Assembly (NCBI GenBank): GCA_021774575.1
Contig: JAJFIX010000045.1
Location: forward strand, 62,001 to 126,000
DNA length: 64,000 nucleotides
Source of the DNA: Alphaproteobacteria bacterium
GTDB lineage: Bacteria > Pseudomonadota > Alphaproteobacteria > UBA6615
Reading direction: 5' to 3'
Positions 21,199 to 29,464 of the stretch are shown in pieces (the stretch's first letter is position 1; the number at the start of each line of letters is the position of its first letter). Under the pieces are notes generated by a model. The model was not told where the DNA came from. It was given only the letters and a program-made list of their open reading frames with translations, and made no database searches. Both the position numbers and the translations under genes were made by a program.

Positions 21199-21567
21199 CT
21201 AGCCCTCAGCCACCCATCCAGACGCTGTCCGGCACGCGCGCTCAACCCTGGTCACCGCTGGCACGCCTTGGGTTTCCACCATGACCCGGTAGTCGCGACA
21301 AAAACTGTTATCGCGCCGCCTAAACGTCCTAATTGGTGTAATTTCTCCGCTGACTGCCGCACGCACAATGCGCCAATGTGTTGTCACCCCACTTTTCGAG
21401 GTTTCCAATGCCAATTGAATGACTGAATCAGGAATCACCATCCTGTCTGACTGAAGACTGACTTGAGCAACTGTTTCGTTGAGTGACTGTGCCAGGGAAA
21501 TGCTGACAAAAAATGCACAAATAAAAATGACTGCACCAGTCGATGTCGCTGCACGGCGCACTATCAT
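21199..21567 (-). CDS. Small exported protein sharing a domain with the nearby anti-sigma factor
   Basis: About 122 residues from ATG at 21567, placed by GGGAGG six bases upstream and a 4-nt ATGA overlap with the gene before it. An N-terminal signal segment (AVIFICAFFVSISLAQS) is followed by a domain with the fixed residues ALET, W, ITP, TF, FCR, ACR and GW. The same pattern in the same order is found at the C-terminus of the anti-sigma factor at 23072-23704. This resembles the C-terminal domain of RT0821/Lpp0805-type surface proteins. It is probably periplasmic or surface-exposed. The role is unknown, but co-control by the ECF pair is likely. Confidence 0.72.
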   Translation of the reverse strand: MIVRRAATSTGAVIFICAFFVSISLAQSLNETVAQVSLQSDRMVIPDSVIQLALETSKSGVTTHWRIVRAAVSGEITPIRTFRRRDNSFCRDYRVMVETQGVPAVTRVERACRTASGWVAEG

Positions 21568-22343
21568 TGCCAACCTCCCGCAATTGCGGCGTCTTCTTCA
21601 TCTGGCGTCAGTACTCTTGCACCCGATAACAGGTCGCGAATAATATCTAAAACCGAATCCCCATCCTGAGCGTCAGCGCCATCACCGTCTGATTCCTCGA
21701 CCTCGATTTCAACGACACGGTTTTCGTCAAGAACGCGGGCGGCAGAGCCTGATATCCCCATCGATATAATCTGCACGTCGCCTATTGGACCTGGGTTACG
21801 CCGCGCGTCGCCTCCATGCGGTTTGGCCTTCACAACAATTTCGCCGTTCTCACTCTCGATCTCAACTTCCAGGACTCTGCCCAGGTCATCGATTACAACC
21901 GAATTACCAACGATGACTTGCCGAAGTTCGTCATTTGTCAGGTTTAAAATTATTTCCGGACGATCAAGTTCACTGTCATCATCGTCGGAGTCATTTCGAT
22001 TGCTTGAACCGCTCCTGTCCTCATCCTGCCTATCGTTCCGGTTTCCCGGCCCGCTGTTATCTTCCTCCGTATCCTCGTCGCTCCCAGAGCCGCTGCCTGA
22101 GTCATCATCACTAGAGTCATCATCACTAGAGTCATCATCACCGGAACTGTCGTCACCGGAATCGTCGTCACCGGAACTGTCGTCACCGGAACTGTCGTCT
22201 TCGCCATCTTTGGCGAATGCAGGCGAAATTAGACTGAACTTAAAGTGTGCTGCCCCGCCACCATCGGCAGGCATTTCGACTAACGTCAGCATCGAGCCAA
22301 GACCGACAAGCAGCGCAGGCAGGATAAGAATATGCGATTTCAT
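21564..22343 (-). CDS. Exported acidic repeat protein with DSSGDD-type tract
   Basis: About 259 residues from ATG at 22343, chosen because GAGGAG and AAGAGA lie just upstream and because it leaves a normal leader after the promoter at 22389-22414. The signal peptide covers about residues 1-40 and ends near SPAFAKD. A tract of Asp/Ser/Gly repeats follows (roughly residues 42-85), then a charged Asn/Asp/Arg stretch. The second half has a folded-looking region with IILNLTNDELRQVIVGNSV and VLEVEIESENGEIVVKAK. The acidic tract could bind calcium or other cations, which is inference only. It is transcribed away from the ECF sigma gene. Confidence 0.7.
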   Translation of the reverse strand: MKSHILILPALLVGLGSMLTLVEMPADGGGAAHFKFSLISPAFAKDGEDDSSGDDSSGDDDSGDDSSGDDDSSDDDSSDDDSGSGSGSDEDTEEDNSGPGNRNDRQDEDRSGSSNRNDSDDDDSELDRPEIILNLTNDELRQVIVGNSVVIDDLGRVLEVEIESENGEIVVKAKPHGGDARRNPGPIGDVQIISMGISGSAARVLDENRVVEIEVEESDGDGADAQDGDSVLDIIRDLLSGARVLTPDEEDAAIAGGWQ

Positions 22344-22388
22344 TCTCTTGCTCCTCAAGAACGAGCCCAACAGGCCTCACAACAACAC

Positions 22389-22414
22389 AACACGCCACCT
22401 CAAGAAATTATTCC
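22389..22414 (-). promoter_or_regulatory. ECF-type promoter of the acidic repeat protein gene
   Basis: On the minus strand GGAATAA (22414-22408) is followed by exactly 16 bases and then GTT (22391-22389). ECF sigma factors commonly recognise GGAA-type -35 elements with a GTT-type -10. The same motif with the same 16-base spacing occurs on the other strand in front of the ECF gene. Start of transcription would be near 22380, which fits translation from 22343. Confidence 0.65.
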
Positions 22415-22446
22415 ATCAATCGAAAAATAAATAATTCGGCGGGCAG

Positions 22447-22472
22447 GGAATAAATCATATGGCCGGAGTGTT
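22447..22472 (+). promoter_or_regulatory. ECF-type promoter of the sigma/anti-sigma operon
   Basis: GGAATAA at 22447-22453, a 16-base spacer, then GTT at 22470-22472, matching the motif facing the other way at 22389-22414. It lies about 65 bases before the sigma gene start. The layout predicts that the sigma factor drives its own operon and the divergent exported proteins. Confidence 0.65.
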
Positions 22473-22535
22473 ATATGTATATGGACGCCCAATGACGCCC
22501 TGCCGTTCCGCGGCGCCAAATGAGAAGGCGGTCAT

Positions 22536-23057
22536 GTGACATTAGATACGGCCATCGAAGAGCAGATGATAAACCTGCTTCCTAAACTTCGGAGTTTCGC
22601 ACTCGGACTCACTGGATCGGGACCGGATGCTGACGATCTAGTGCAGGCGACGTTCGAACGCGCCATCAAGAATATGGATAAATGGATACCGGGTTCACGG
22701 CTCGATAGTTGGATGTACCGCATCGCTCAAAACCTTCATCGCAACAGCATCCGCAACGAAAGCGGACGGAGTCGCATCATTGAAGAAATTTCGTTCAATC
22801 AACCGAAGACTATTGATGGTGTGCAGGAGGCAGAGACGGCACGGACCGCAGGCCAGGTCTGGAAGCGGATCCAGTCCCTGAGCGCCGAACAGCGGGAAGT
22901 TCTTGTCTTAATCTGCATCAATGGCCTGTCCTATCGAGAGACCGCAGAAACGCTTCGCGTACCAATTGGAACAGTGACCAGCCGCCTGGCCCGCGCGCGG
23001 GAAGAACTTTCGCCGATCATGGATATGGAGCCAAGCTTCGGAAAAACTCAGTCTTGA
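22536..23057 (+). CDS. ECF-family RNA polymerase sigma factor
   Basis: 173 residues starting with GTG at 22536; the ATG just before it is followed at once by a stop in its frame. Region 2 is seen in GPDADDLVQATFERAIKNMD and the promoter-melting part LDSWMYRIAQNLHRN. Region 4 is LSAEQREVLVLICINGLSY with the helix-turn-helix ETAETLRVPIGTVTSRLARAR. The length and the lack of regions 1 and 3 mark the ECF group. The anti-sigma gene follows after 14 bases, and two matching promoters flank the upstream region, so autoregulation is likely. The signal is unknown. Confidence 0.95.
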   Translation: MTLDTAIEEQMINLLPKLRSFALGLTGSGPDADDLVQATFERAIKNMDKWIPGSRLDSWMYRIAQNLHRNSIRNESGRSRIIEEISFNQPKTIDGVQEAETARTAGQVWKRIQSLSAEQREVLVLICINGLSYRETAETLRVPIGTVTSRLARAREELSPIMDMEPSFGKTQS

Positions 23058-23071
23058 AGGAGGAATTTACA

Positions 23072-23704
23072 ATGAGCGATATATCAGAGACCGACCTCAT
23101 GCGGCTAGCCGACGGCGAGCTGCCGACCCACGAGCGGCTTGCACTTGAGGGCATCATTGAGTCGAATCCCGCAGCGAAGCAAAAACTAGCCCGACTGCGA
23201 CGGCAAAACGAGCTCATCCGTCTATCATTTCAAGAACATCAAGACGAGCTAGCGCTCGCACGCCTGAAGACCAATATAAGACAGCAATTCAAACAGCATG
23301 ACAGGCGCGCTGCCGGGTCCAATAGAGCGTTTGGAACCGCGCTCGCCGCGTCAGTCGCAATCTCAGTTATCGCGGCTGTTTTCGCTTATATGTTTGGCGT
23401 GCAGCATGCCGACAACAAGGTCGACCAACTACTGGCCATGCAGGCAATGGAACGTTCGTTGCGCCAAGAAACGATCGAAACTGCCTTGGAAACAACGACC
23501 GGCGGAGAAAGTTTGACTTGGTCTAGTCCCACCAGCGGAACCCATGGCATTATTACGCCCTTGAATACGTTTCGCAGTGCTGGCGGCAGATTTTGCCGCG
23601 AATTAACCGTAACAACTAAATCAGCAATGTCAGAGGAGATCGCGCAAGGCGTGGCTTGTCGTCATCAAAGCGGTGGGTGGACGGTATTAACATCGCAAAC
23701 TTAG
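23072..23704 (+). CDS. Membrane-bound anti-sigma factor with periplasmic surface-antigen-like domain
   Basis: About 210 residues from ATG at 23072, set by AAGGAGG around 23057-23063. The N-terminus DLMRLADGELPTHERLALE is typical of anti-sigma domains, but there is no HxxxCxxC zinc motif. One membrane helix is seen at about residues 85-107 (GTALAASVAISVIAAVFAY). The C-terminal periplasmic part ends with ITPLNTF, RFCREL, ACRH and GGW, the same pattern as in the exported protein at 21199-21567. This suggests the sensor domain and a regulon product share a fold and maybe a ligand or partner. The cognate partner is the ECF factor just upstream. Confidence 0.85.
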   Translation: MSDISETDLMRLADGELPTHERLALEGIIESNPAAKQKLARLRRQNELIRLSFQEHQDELALARLKTNIRQQFKQHDRRAAGSNRAFGTALAASVAISVIAAVFAYMFGVQHADNKVDQLLAMQAMERSLRQETIETALETTTGGESLTWSSPTSGTHGIITPLNTFRSAGGRFCRELTVTTKSAMSEEIAQGVACRHQSGGWTVLTSQT

Positions 23705-23790: not shown

Positions 23791-26148
23791 TTAAACCTTT
23801 ACGCGCTGCAGCCGCAGCGCATTGGCGATTACCGAAACAGAGCTCAGTGACATGGCGGCGGCGGCAATGATTGGGCTGAGCAATATTCCGATGAACGGGA
23901 ACAGCACACCGGCAGCCACCGGCACGCCGAGGGAATTGTAGATAAACGCGAAAAAGAGGTTCTGCCGGATATTTCGCATCGTGGCCCGGCTGAGATTTCG
24001 AGCGCGAACGATACCCATTAAATCGCCTTTGACCAGGGTAATTCCTGCGCTCTCCATTGCAATATCGGTGCCGGTTCCCATGGCAATGCCAACATGGGCT
24101 CGCGCCAATGCCGGCGCATCATTAACACCGTCGCCGGCCATCGCGACGATGCGACCTTCGTCACGCAACCGGCGAACGAACTCTCCCTTACCTTCGGGCA
24201 AAACACCGGCCGCAAAGCGGGTGATCCCAAGTTGGTCGGCGACAGCTTTAGCAGTAACTTTATTATCGCCCGTTACCATCACGACGGTGATGCCGATGGC
24301 AGCGAGCTCCTGCAAGGCCTGGGGCGTGGTTTCCTTAATCGGATCGGCGACCGCGATCAAGCCAGCAATCACACTATCGATCGTCAGATAGACAATTGTG
24401 GCACCGGCAGTGCGCAACTCATCGGCCGCCTCATTTGTATCTTCATGGGCAATATGCATTTCTCGTATCAATGTATCGTTACCCAACGCCACCTCTCGAC
24501 CGCCAATACGGCCTTGAACCCCTCGCCCGGTCAGAGACTCAAATGTCTCTGGGTCGGGCAAATTGACGCCGGTCTTTGTTGCGGCATCGATAATGGCTGC
24601 CGCTAATGGGTGTTCGCTTTGCTTTTCAAGGGCACCGGCAAGTCGCAAAATTTCGACTTCGCTAAATCCATTGAAAGGCACAATTAACGAAACTTTGGGC
24701 ATACCCAGTGTCAGCGTTCCAGTTTTGTCGACGACCAGCGTGTCGACGGTTTCCATCTGCTCCAGAGATTCGGCATTCTTGATCAAAACGCCTGCATGGG
24801 CACCTCGACCGGTACCGACCATGATCGACATCGGCGTGGCCAAACCAAGAGCGCAAGGGCAGGCTATGATAAGGACGGAGACCGCCGCAATTAACCCGTG
24901 GGAGACGGAAGGGACCGGCCCCCAGATCGACCATATGGCAAATGCTAATCCGGCAACCGTGACGACGGTCGGAACGAAATAGCCGGCCACCCTATCGGCT
25001 ACCTTTTGAATGGGTGCGCGGGTTCTTTGCGCATCGGCAACCATTTGAACAATTTGCGCCAATAAGGTCTCGCGGCCGATGCGATCAGCGCGCATGATAA
25101 AGCTGCCGGTACCGTTCAGTGTGCCGCCAATTACGGTATCGCGAACCGTTTTTTCTATTGGGATAGATTCGCCGGTGACCATGGATTCGTCGACCGAACT
25201 GGTGCCGCCGACCACGCTTCCATCGACCGGCACTTTCTCTCCAGGGCGGACCCGCAGCAAATCGCCGACGAGAACTTGATCCAAATTTACGTCTTCGTCG
25301 GCTTCACCCCCAGCATTTTCACCAACCCGCCGGGCCGTTTTTGGCGCCAGGTCGAGGAGCGCGCGCAGCGCTGAGCCAGTCCGTTCCCGAGCCCGCAACT
25401 CTAGGACCTGGCCCAAAAGCACCAAGACGACAATGACCGCCGCAGCTTCAAAATAGATCGCAACGGTGCCGTGCTCATTTTGAAAGGTTTCGGGGAAGAT
25501 GTTTGGGGCCAATGTGGCAACGACGCTGTAGATGAAGGCGGCGCCGGTTCCTAGCGCGATCAATGTAAACATATTGAGATTTCGAGTTCTGAGCGACTCC
25601 CAACCGCGAATGAAGAACGGCATACCACACCAAACAACCGCGGGCGTCGCAAGGATCAGTTGCAGCCAATTTAGTTGGGTGGCCGAAACATATCGCGTCG
25701 CCTGTAGGTTAAAAAAATGCCCCCCCATTTCAAGAACCAATAGCGGAATCGAGAAAACCAGGCCAACCCAAAACCGTCGTGTCATATCTATCAGTTCCGG
25801 GCTCGGTCCGATATCGATGGACGCGTCCATCGGTTCCAATGCCATTCCACATATGGGGCAGCTCCCCGGCCCGACCTGCACAATTTCCAGGTGCATGGGG
25901 CAGGTCCACTCAGCGTCGGCGGGAACATCGGCGGGATCGAACGCCGGTTCACCGCTAAGGTATTTTTCCGGATCGCTAGCGAACTTCGTTTTACAACCGG
26001 CGCCGCAGAAATAATATTTTTTGTCTGAATGCTGGTAAATATGTTTGGCGTTTAGCGTATCGACGGACATGCCGCAAACCAGATCCTTTGCAACCGACAC
26101 CTCCGTGCCTGTCGTCGTGTCGTCGGCTGCGTTCATATGTTTTTTCAC
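23791..26148 (-). CDS. copA: Copper-type P1B ATPase with YHS and heavy-metal-binding N-terminal domains
   Basis: 785 residues, starting with GTG at 26148 behind AGGAGG; ATG four codons later is the alternative. A YHS domain ([10 protein letters not shown]...[11 protein letters not shown]) is at about 20-65 and a HMBD ([10 protein letters not shown]...CPICGMALE) at 83-110. Then come the P-type signatures: TGES in [29 protein letters not shown], the HP locus EHPLAAAI, and [10 protein letters not shown]. The usual MxCxxC HMA domain is missing. CPC marks Cu(I)/Ag(I) export from the cytoplasm. A merR-type regulator gene lies directly upstream on the same strand but is broken. Confidence 0.93.
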
Positions 26149-27895: not shown

Positions 27896-29464
27896 TTAGC
27901 GGCGTAACACGACAAGCCCAGCCTCAAACATTGCCCGACAATCAGTACCGTCATGGAGCACGTCAGCCTTTAAGAGCTGGGTATGTGCCATGCCGGGCCC
28001 GGTGAAACGCGCATCGTCGCATTCTCCATCTGTGGCAAATGGGCTGGCGTCATCGCCAAAATTTGGCGTCAACTCATGCCCAAGGGCAGTCCCGCCCGCT
28101 TGGTCGGGTTGACTAAGGCCACCGCCTAGAACGGCGCCGGGCAACAAGGGGGGTGTCGGCACCACAACAGGAGCCTGGGCTACTTGGGGAATATCCGGGA
28201 TTTGGCCTGACGGCGGCAATGGCGTCGGTTGCTCAATAGCCTGAGGAGTAACCTCAGGAGCAGCTTGCGGAGCGGTGGCAATGACACGTTTGTTCGATGT
28301 CGCCTTGCGGGGGGGTACACTAGGCGATGATGCGACCTCGGATATTGCAGGTAAATCCGGGACGGGCACCGAGACCGATGGCGCCAATGGCTGTTGCGCC
28401 GGAGCAGGTGGCGTGTCGGAAACACTAGATTGCCGCTGTGGCTCCAGCGTTTGAGGTTCCGCGACTGATTGAACGGGCCCAGCAGCCACCTCAACCGGAG
28501 GCACTTCGGGCTCAAGCTCGGGGACCGGCTGCGCAGGAACAGAAACAACCGATGGCGTAGAATTTTGTAATTCCGGCACAGCGGCAACTTCGACTTCAAC
28601 TTCAACTTCAACTTCGACTTCGACTTCAACTTCAACTTCGACTTCGACCTCGTCCTCGTCCTCGTCCTCTACCGCCACCTCTGTCGTTGGAGCTGGAGCT
28701 GGAGCTGGAGCTGGAGCTGGAGCTGGAGCTGGAGCTGGAGCTGGAGCTGGAGCTGGAGCTGGAGCTGGAGCTGGAGCTGGAGCTGGAGCTGGAGCTGGAG
28801 CTGGAGCTGGAGCTGGAGCTGGGACTTCTTCCTCCGGCTCTTGGCGAGCGGTCGTATCCTGTATGACTTGGCGTCTATTGGGGGTAATGGGCACCGGCAC
28901 TCGGGTCGCTGCAAGCTCCTCTGCCGCAGCGACCTGCGCCAATCGGGCGCTGCAGGCCGCGCCATCCCCGAGTCCCTGGGTTGCGGCAAATCTATCACTA
29001 ATTTCGCGTCGGGTCGGATTCAATCTCACAGCATCGGCGTAGTCGGCAACGGCGCAATTGATGTCGCCAAGCGCCTCGTAGGCCGTTCCTCGATTAAAAA
29101 AAGAAAACGAATCAGTGGGGCTTAAACCAATTGATTGGGTATAATCTTCAATCGCTGCGTCAAGATTGCCCAAGCGCTGCTGAGCAAGACCACGATTGTA
29201 GAGCACCTGCCCCCGATCACCTTCAGTCAGGCCGTCGCCGGCTGCTAAGGCCCGGGTTAAAATATCTATGGCCCGCGCATTCTCCCCCTGCACAACAGCG
29301 GTAATGCCGACGTTAGCGTCCTGGAGAGCGGTCGAAAATGCGGCACTGGAAATGCCAAATAGCGCCAAAGAGAACAGCAACATAGAAATCACTGCCTGGG
29401 AAATCACCGCCTGGGAAATCACTGCCTGGCGCGCATCAAAAAACTGTCTTCCGGGCCCGGACAT
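27896..29464 (-). CDS. Exported TPR protein with long Ala-Pro and Val-Glu repeat stalks
   Basis: 522 residues; ATG at 29464 follows AGGAGG by eight bases. The N-terminal leader has three tandem QAVIS units before the hydrophobic core SMLLFSLALFGISSAAFS. TPR units follow at about 45-150 (YNRGLAQQRLGNLDAAIED, FFNRGTAYEALGDINCAVAD). Then come about 23 Ala-Pro dipeptides (near 214-260), an acidic Val-Glu stretch and a long Pro-rich linker. The C-terminal 70 residues have two cysteines (ECDDARFTG...DGTDCRAMF) like the paralog downstream. The AP stalk is rigid and could span the periplasm or peptidoglycan. Length change of the 6-bp repeat keeps the frame. Confidence 0.78.
   Translation of the reverse strand: MSGPGRQFFDARQAVISQAVISQAVISMLLFSLALFGISSAAFSTALQDANVGITAVVQGENARAIDILTRALAAGDGLTEGDRGQVLYNRGLAQQRLGNLDAAIEDYTQSIGLSPTDSFSFFNRGTAYEALGDINCAVADYADAVRLNPTRREISDRFAATQGLGDGAACSARLAQVAAAEELAATRVPVPITPNRRQVIQDTTARQEPEEEVPAPAPAPAPAPAPAPAPAPAPAPAPAPAPAPAPAPAPAPAPAPAPTTEVAVEDEDEDEVEVEVEVEVEVEVEVEVEVEVAAVPELQNSTPSVVSVPAQPVPELEPEVPPVEVAAGPVQSVAEPQTLEPQRQSSVSDTPPAPAQQPLAPSVSVPVPDLPAISEVASSPSVPPRKATSNKRVIATAPQAAPEVTPQAIEQPTPLPPSGQIPDIPQVAQAPVVVPTPPLLPGAVLGGGLSQPDQAGGTALGHELTPNFGDDASPFATDGECDDARFTGPGMAHTQLLKADVLHDGTDCRAMFEAGLVVLRR
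28689..28822. repeat. Perfect hexanucleotide tandem repeat, about 22 copies of ggagct
   Basis: The stretch is 134 bp of ggagct units without visible interruption and encodes the Ala-Pro stalk on the minus strand. A second impure 6-bp repeat around 28590-28650 (acttcg/acttca) encodes the Val-Glu run. Such a perfect repeat is prone to replication slippage and would vary the stalk by two residues per unit. Confidence 0.95.
29385..29429. repeat. 15-bp tandem repeat, three copies, in the leader of the TPR protein
   Basis: Units of the form gaaatcactgcctgg occur at 29385-29399, 29400-29414 (one base different) and 29415-29429. On the minus strand they encode three QAVIS units just before the hydrophobic core of the signal segment. 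Confidence 0.9.

Follow-up and report, generated by a model that had tools for sequence, protein, structure and literature searches.

In the RseA/RseB/DegS system, the anti-sigma factor has a periplasmic domain and a periplasmic partner, and the C-terminal peptide of exported proteins serves as the signal. Pairs of ECF sigma factors with anti-sigma factors are already known, as is the domain of the 17-kDa surface antigens. In ECF54, an ECF sigma gene has a subtilase neighbor and is described as working without an anti-sigma factor (PMC8999054). Our search of the literature, with the main ECF classification outside its scope, yielded no function for the 17-kDa antigen domain and nothing that joins this domain, anti-sigma factors and subtilases; nor did it yield the combination, the tail or the reciprocal placement described below. 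The gene neighborhood may already be catalogued in the main ECF classification, without the present reading.

Layout of the Locus

The window (the whole 64,000-nucleotide stretch of DNA that was analyzed) is part of a 3.5-Mb genome (G000, contig 40), and the locus within it consists of a sigma/anti-sigma operon and a divergent operon for a secreted and an exported protein (Table 1). The sigma factor matches regions 2 and 4, with no match to the sigma-3 domain, and scores above the cut-off of TIGR02937 (sigma70-ECF), which identifies it as an ECF sigma factor. Its neighbor reaches only 25.9 bits against the NCBIfam anti-sigma model (cut-off, 100); the protein appears to comprise a cytoplasmic N-terminal part, one hydrophobic segment (approximately residues 88–110) and a periplasmic 17-kDa domain, with the membrane segment and topology assigned by inspection only. 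On the opposite strand, the anti-sigma gene adjoins a heavy-metal P-type ATPase gene (window 23791–26148, −); farther along, an exported protein of TPR-like character contains long repeats of Pro-Ala and Glu-Val (window 27896–29464, −).

The acidic secreted protein has no Pfam match above cut-off, and neither Pfam nor NCBIfam gives it a name. Its open reading frame begins with a TTG at 22370, and the ATG at 22343 is the most likely start. The frame of the exported protein is listed from an upstream TTG (21573); its ATG at 21567 overlaps the stop codon of the secreted-protein gene (ATGA), so that the two form a translationally coupled pair. The secreted proteins of these loci, the one in the window included, share an unusual N-terminus in which a hydrophobic segment is separated by ~20–25 residues from an AxA-like site, with the acidic stretch beyond it.

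Table 1. Features of the locus, in window positions
Feature	Position	Strand	Basis or remark
ECF sigma factor gene	22536..23057	+	GTG start; Pfam Sigma70_r2 and Sigma70_r4_2 above cut-off
Anti-sigma factor gene	23072..23704	+	Directly 3' of the sigma gene
17-kDa domain of the anti-sigma factor (residues 135-207)	23474..23692	+	PF16998; aligned with exported orthologs
Acidic Asp/Ser-rich secreted protein	21564..22343	-	Related loci have counterparts in this position
C-terminal tail region GDSVLDIIRDLLSGARVLTPDEEDAAIAGGWQ of the secreted protein	21567..21662	-	Tail model, conservation, genome-wide best match
Small exported protein, signal sequence and stand-alone 17-kDa domain	21199..21567	-	Counted from ATG
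Promoter-like motif GGAATAA-N14-GTGTT facing the sigma operon	22447..22472	+	Exact; recurs in related loci
Promoter-like motif GGAATAA-N14-GTGTT facing the secreted-protein operon	22389..22414	-	Exact; recurs in related loci

A 17-kDa Antigen Domain in Both Proteins

A preliminary description of this DNA had pointed out that the motifs ALET, W, ITP, TF, FCR, ACR and GW follow one another in the same order in the C-terminus of the anti-sigma factor and in the exported protein, and they are indeed present in both where it had placed them. The shared domain that it proposed on this ground is borne out by the comparison of a profile of 12 exported orthologs with a profile of 11 anti-sigma domains (99.8% probability, E = 4e-30) and by BLASTP of the window's own pair (30% identity; E = 4e-11 for this single comparison). 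The Smith-Waterman score of the pair is 108, versus at most 60 across 5000 shuffles of the mature part. The families matched, PF16998 (17kDa_Anti_2) and PF16587 (DUF5061), are those of 17-kDa surface antigens, and residues 135–207 of the anti-sigma factor reach 42.8 bits with PF16998 against a curated cut-off of 26.6.

Taken alone, the exported protein of the window has no Pfam or NCBIfam match and stays below the PF16998 cut-off. Two of three exported orthologs at the same operon position exceed the Pfam cut-off when scanned singly, as do 25 of the 28 members of the alignment of exported orthologs with matching anti-sigma domains. Through these orthologs and the profile comparison, the window's protein is assigned as a divergent member of the 17-kDa-domain group. 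AlphaFold, supplied with 28 relatives, predicts its domain as one helix and five strands (pLDDT 94–98 within the domain); a sequence search of solved structures gave no convincing relative of the 17-kDa domain or of the tailed domain. The lipobox and glycine zipper that complete the architecture of 17-kDa antigen lipoproteins are absent from both the exported protein and the anti-sigma factor.

The pairing of sensor and exported protein is conserved; the domain is not special to this pair, for the same genome encodes other 17-kDa-domain proteins (L069, L070). In the domain tree, which has only 75 columns, the ordinary glycine-zipper antigens lie on a branch separate from the exported and anti-sigma domains. 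We rejected the idea that the exported domain is a recent duplicate of the anti-sigma domain, since the tree, at low resolution, has mostly separate, mirrored lineages. A cysteine-based redox sensor was likewise discarded: the cysteines are equally conserved in ordinary antigens and are, for that reason, probably structural. Elsewhere in the genome there is a decayed second copy of the anti-sigma gene (L004:5289-5766, −; G000:C42:226291-226811), whose frame is broken between the start and the 17-kDa part and which has no match to a sigma gene next to it.

Promoter Motifs and the Regulon

Identical promoter-like motifs in the intergenic region face the two operons, and the 64-kb window contains no further match to GGAATAA-N14-GTGTT at up to one mismatch (0.18 expected). 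In 95 related-locus regions, a loose form of the motif was present on the sigma side in 48 and on the divergent side in 24, compared with an expectation of 0.54 per direction from base shuffles. Because the motif faces both operons and recurs in related loci, the exported protein is very probably under control of the sigma factor, in agreement with its earlier designation as a regulon member. A whole-genome scan revealed three more exact matches, none of them clearly upstream of a fitting gene, and we thus claim no wider regulon.

Three Arrangements in Related Loci

We searched 387 genomes of the class with profiles and scanned public genomes once on the basis of the sigma factor; together these yielded 97 loci (two counted twice) with a sigma gene and an anti-sigma gene after it. 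Most of the named relatives belong to the Alphaproteobacteria, and the pairing is kept in many members of this class and in some Gammaproteobacteria; hosts include Kiloniellales, Pelagibius, Sphingopyxis and Hyphomicrobium, and, among the gammaproteobacteria, Motiliproteus and Competibacteraceae.

In type A, to which the window belongs, the anti-sigma factor carries the 17-kDa domain, and a divergent secreted, low-complexity Asp/Gly-rich protein is followed by a stand-alone 17-kDa protein. In most loci, the start of the latter adjoins or overlaps the stop before it; in many relatives this stand-alone protein is a lipoprotein. Type B loci have a subtilisin-like protease (PF00082) in the neighboring gene, with an Asp/Gly-rich stretch before the catalytic part in 23 of 47, and lack the stand-alone 17-kDa protein. 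Type C has a longer 17-kDa lipoprotein after the anti-sigma gene (e.g., L146, L152 and L155). The window is set apart from type B by having neither an S8 protease beside the sigma gene nor a tail on the anti-sigma factor. One genome contains both type A and type B (L109 and L110; G166:C91 and G166:C36).

The C-Terminal Tail

Between the exported protein and the sigma operon lies the gene for the acidic secreted protein, which the preliminary description had passed over together with its tail. This protein ends in LTPDEEDAAIAGGWQ, its extreme C-terminal end in the window being VLTPDEEDAAIAGGWQ. The tail consensus in the secreted proteins of types A and C is DLSxDEEAxAIxxGWQ; across 14 type A tails, its L, E, I, G and W do not vary, and the same tail stands behind the 17-kDa domain in many type B anti-sigma factors. 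When run on 6141 ORFs, a model whose training set consisted solely of 38 anti-sigma tails matches the secreted protein of the window (E = 1.3e-3). Outside anti-sigma factors, it matches hardly anything but divergent secreted proteins, and almost always at their C-terminal end; the two top matches outside the set proved to be anti-sigma factors that the N-terminal model had missed. In 500 trials each, no shuffled tail scored as high as the real ones. Six whole genomes were searched, and in each of them the tail gives its best match at this locus; the profile used did not contain five of these six tails, but did contain that of the window. For a type B anti-sigma factor, AlphaFold predicts the tail as two confident helices (pLDDT about 94, pTM 0.75), a model compatible with their packing on the 17-kDa domain.

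The tail and the stand-alone 17-kDa protein are placed reciprocally. Loci with a tailed anti-sigma factor have a stand-alone 17-kDa protein in 0 of 43 cases and a separate tail protein in 0 of 43; in the remaining loci, these are present in 32 of 54 and 24 of 54, respectively. None of the 97 loci has a stand-alone 17-kDa protein beside an S8 protease. The arrangements cluster in the sigma tree, where no more than two independent contrasts fall on branches with strong support; these counts and their contingency p-values are for this reason descriptive. Exceptions are L164, L179 and L203, which encode a 17-kDa anti-sigma factor with neither tail nor stand-alone protein detected, and several type B anti-sigma factors that keep the tail, their 17-kDa domain being undetected by the model used.

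Several genera have type A secreted proteins with a Hint (hedgehog/intein-like) domain, whose terminal VHNKG immediately precedes the Gly-rich linker and tail (L141:4842-5891, L143:4788-5792, L144:3877-4758, L145:1845-2798, L151:4102-5127 and L214:4064-5842; all −) and which suggests self-cleavage that would release the tail part. Both Pelagibius loci encode a second Hint-domain protein with the same tail ~1–2 kb beyond the stand-alone 17-kDa gene (L141:2649-3719 and L143:2663-3649; both −). A gene for a PKHD-type 2OG-Fe(II) hydroxylase, which may modify the acidic secreted protein, lies directly 3' of the stand-alone 17-kDa gene in two loci, and a third has two copies (L066:4137-4808, −; L107:6871-7542, +; L108:7196-8599, +).

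A Proposed Self-Monitoring Switch and Its Alternatives

The tail and the 17-kDa domain probably act together, because they are fused in the sister systems and encoded by neighboring, coupled genes here. We infer that the 17-kDa domain binds the tail, and the C-terminal tail of the secreted protein is the best candidate for the ligand. On these grounds, our best explanation, with a probability of roughly 0.4, is that the locus encodes a self-monitoring ECF sigma switch in which the domain would bind the tail and the exported protein and the sensor would share it, giving feedback. The feedback between exported protein and sensor suggested in the preliminary description is plausible in this form, although the exported copy appears not as an isolated mimic but as the second half of a coupled pair.

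In such a switch, the sigma factor would drive synthesis of the tail protein and, in an amount coupled to it, of the 17-kDa partner. The exported 17-kDa protein, as the regular partner of the tail (an escort or anchor), would take it up, and the 17-kDa domain of the anti-sigma factor would sense only what its exported counterpart leaves over. If the tail-bound anti-sigma factor stays inhibitory, sigma would remain on until enough tail protein has been made; that bound means off is a guess and the least certain step. In type B, the built-in tail would keep the sensor occupied until proteolysis, with release perhaps by the linked subtilisin-like protease, whose role is likewise a guess. Somewhat less probable is a signaling principle by which the anti-sigma factor uses the 17-kDa-antigen domain to measure the unbound C-terminal tail of a secreted protein from its own regulon, with the co-translated exported copy as a buffer for the tail; if true, it would suggest that the widespread 17-kDa antigen domain generally reads C-terminal tails.

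Alternatively, the exported 17-kDa protein might bind its counterpart domain on the anti-sigma factor and serve in the periplasm as a co-inhibitor or release factor, much as RseB does for RseA, the tail being a separate feature of the secreted protein. Such a contact would agree with the homology of the two domains and with the joint retention of both lineages in type A loci; we nevertheless consider it unlikely, since type B has the sensor with no stand-alone copy and since it would leave unexplained why the secreted protein carries the tail here but the anti-sigma factor carries it in type B. According to the preliminary description, the exported protein could compete for the ligand of the sensor; in this model, both would bind one small or envelope ligand that the locus does not encode. 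This would account for a domain common to two members of one regulon, but it seems rather improbable: no result points to such a ligand, and the model ignores a tail that is specific to these loci.

It is also improbable, in our view, that the anti-sigma factor carries the domain solely as a periplasmic module for stability or protease recognition, with the members co-traveling as one regulon and the signal lying elsewhere. In favor of this reading, the domain is widespread on unrelated lipoproteins and degenerate in many type B anti-sigma factors; against it stand the reciprocal placement of the tail and the stand-alone domain, which would be unexpected, and the cysteines and core motifs, which remain conserved in type A. 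That the tail is an export or surface-sorting signal of the secreted protein, unrelated to sensing, is very unlikely, even though a low-complexity linker leads into the tail at the very end of the protein and many exported partners are lipoproteins, given that the tail also occurs on 43 anti-sigma factors, which are expected to stay in the membrane, and that a sorting receptor built of the 17-kDa domain would merge with the switch favored here.

The self-monitoring switch offers a concrete ligand hypothesis, with the 17-kDa domain as an anti-sigma sensor and one dedicated tail, secreted or fused. If it is correct, it would represent a new kind of input for ECF signaling and would account for the small exported copy that accompanies the sensor.

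Comparison with Known Systems

The sister type B loci resemble ECF54 in having a subtilase gene beside the ECF sigma gene (PMC8999054), but differ from it in possessing an anti-sigma factor; a protease is absent from the window itself. With the 17-kDa surface antigens (PF16998/PF16587), the anti-sigma domain and the exported orthologs share the paired cysteines and the FCR/ACR/W core. Ordinary members of these families are lipoproteins that possess a glycine-zipper segment and group on a separate branch, whereas here an anti-sigma factor and a small exported protein lacking a glycine zipper bear the domain.

The locus agrees with ECF sigma factors controlled by class I membrane anti-sigma factors (PMC7406223) in having a sigma factor of regions 2 and 4 only, an adjacent anti-sigma gene with one putative membrane segment and a promoter motif that faces its own operon. 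It departs from those systems in its sensor, which is a 17-kDa domain, and in the presence of the same domain on a regulon product.

In its proposed working, the switch resembles RseA/RseB/DegS, with an anti-sigma periplasmic domain, a periplasmic partner and a C-terminal peptide as the putative signal. The locus showed no homolog of DegS or RseB, and the exported partner is, by profile comparison and AlphaFold, a 17-kDa domain and not of the RseB type. Unlike the peptide signal of that system, the proposed peptide here would be a dedicated tail carried on a product of the regulon.
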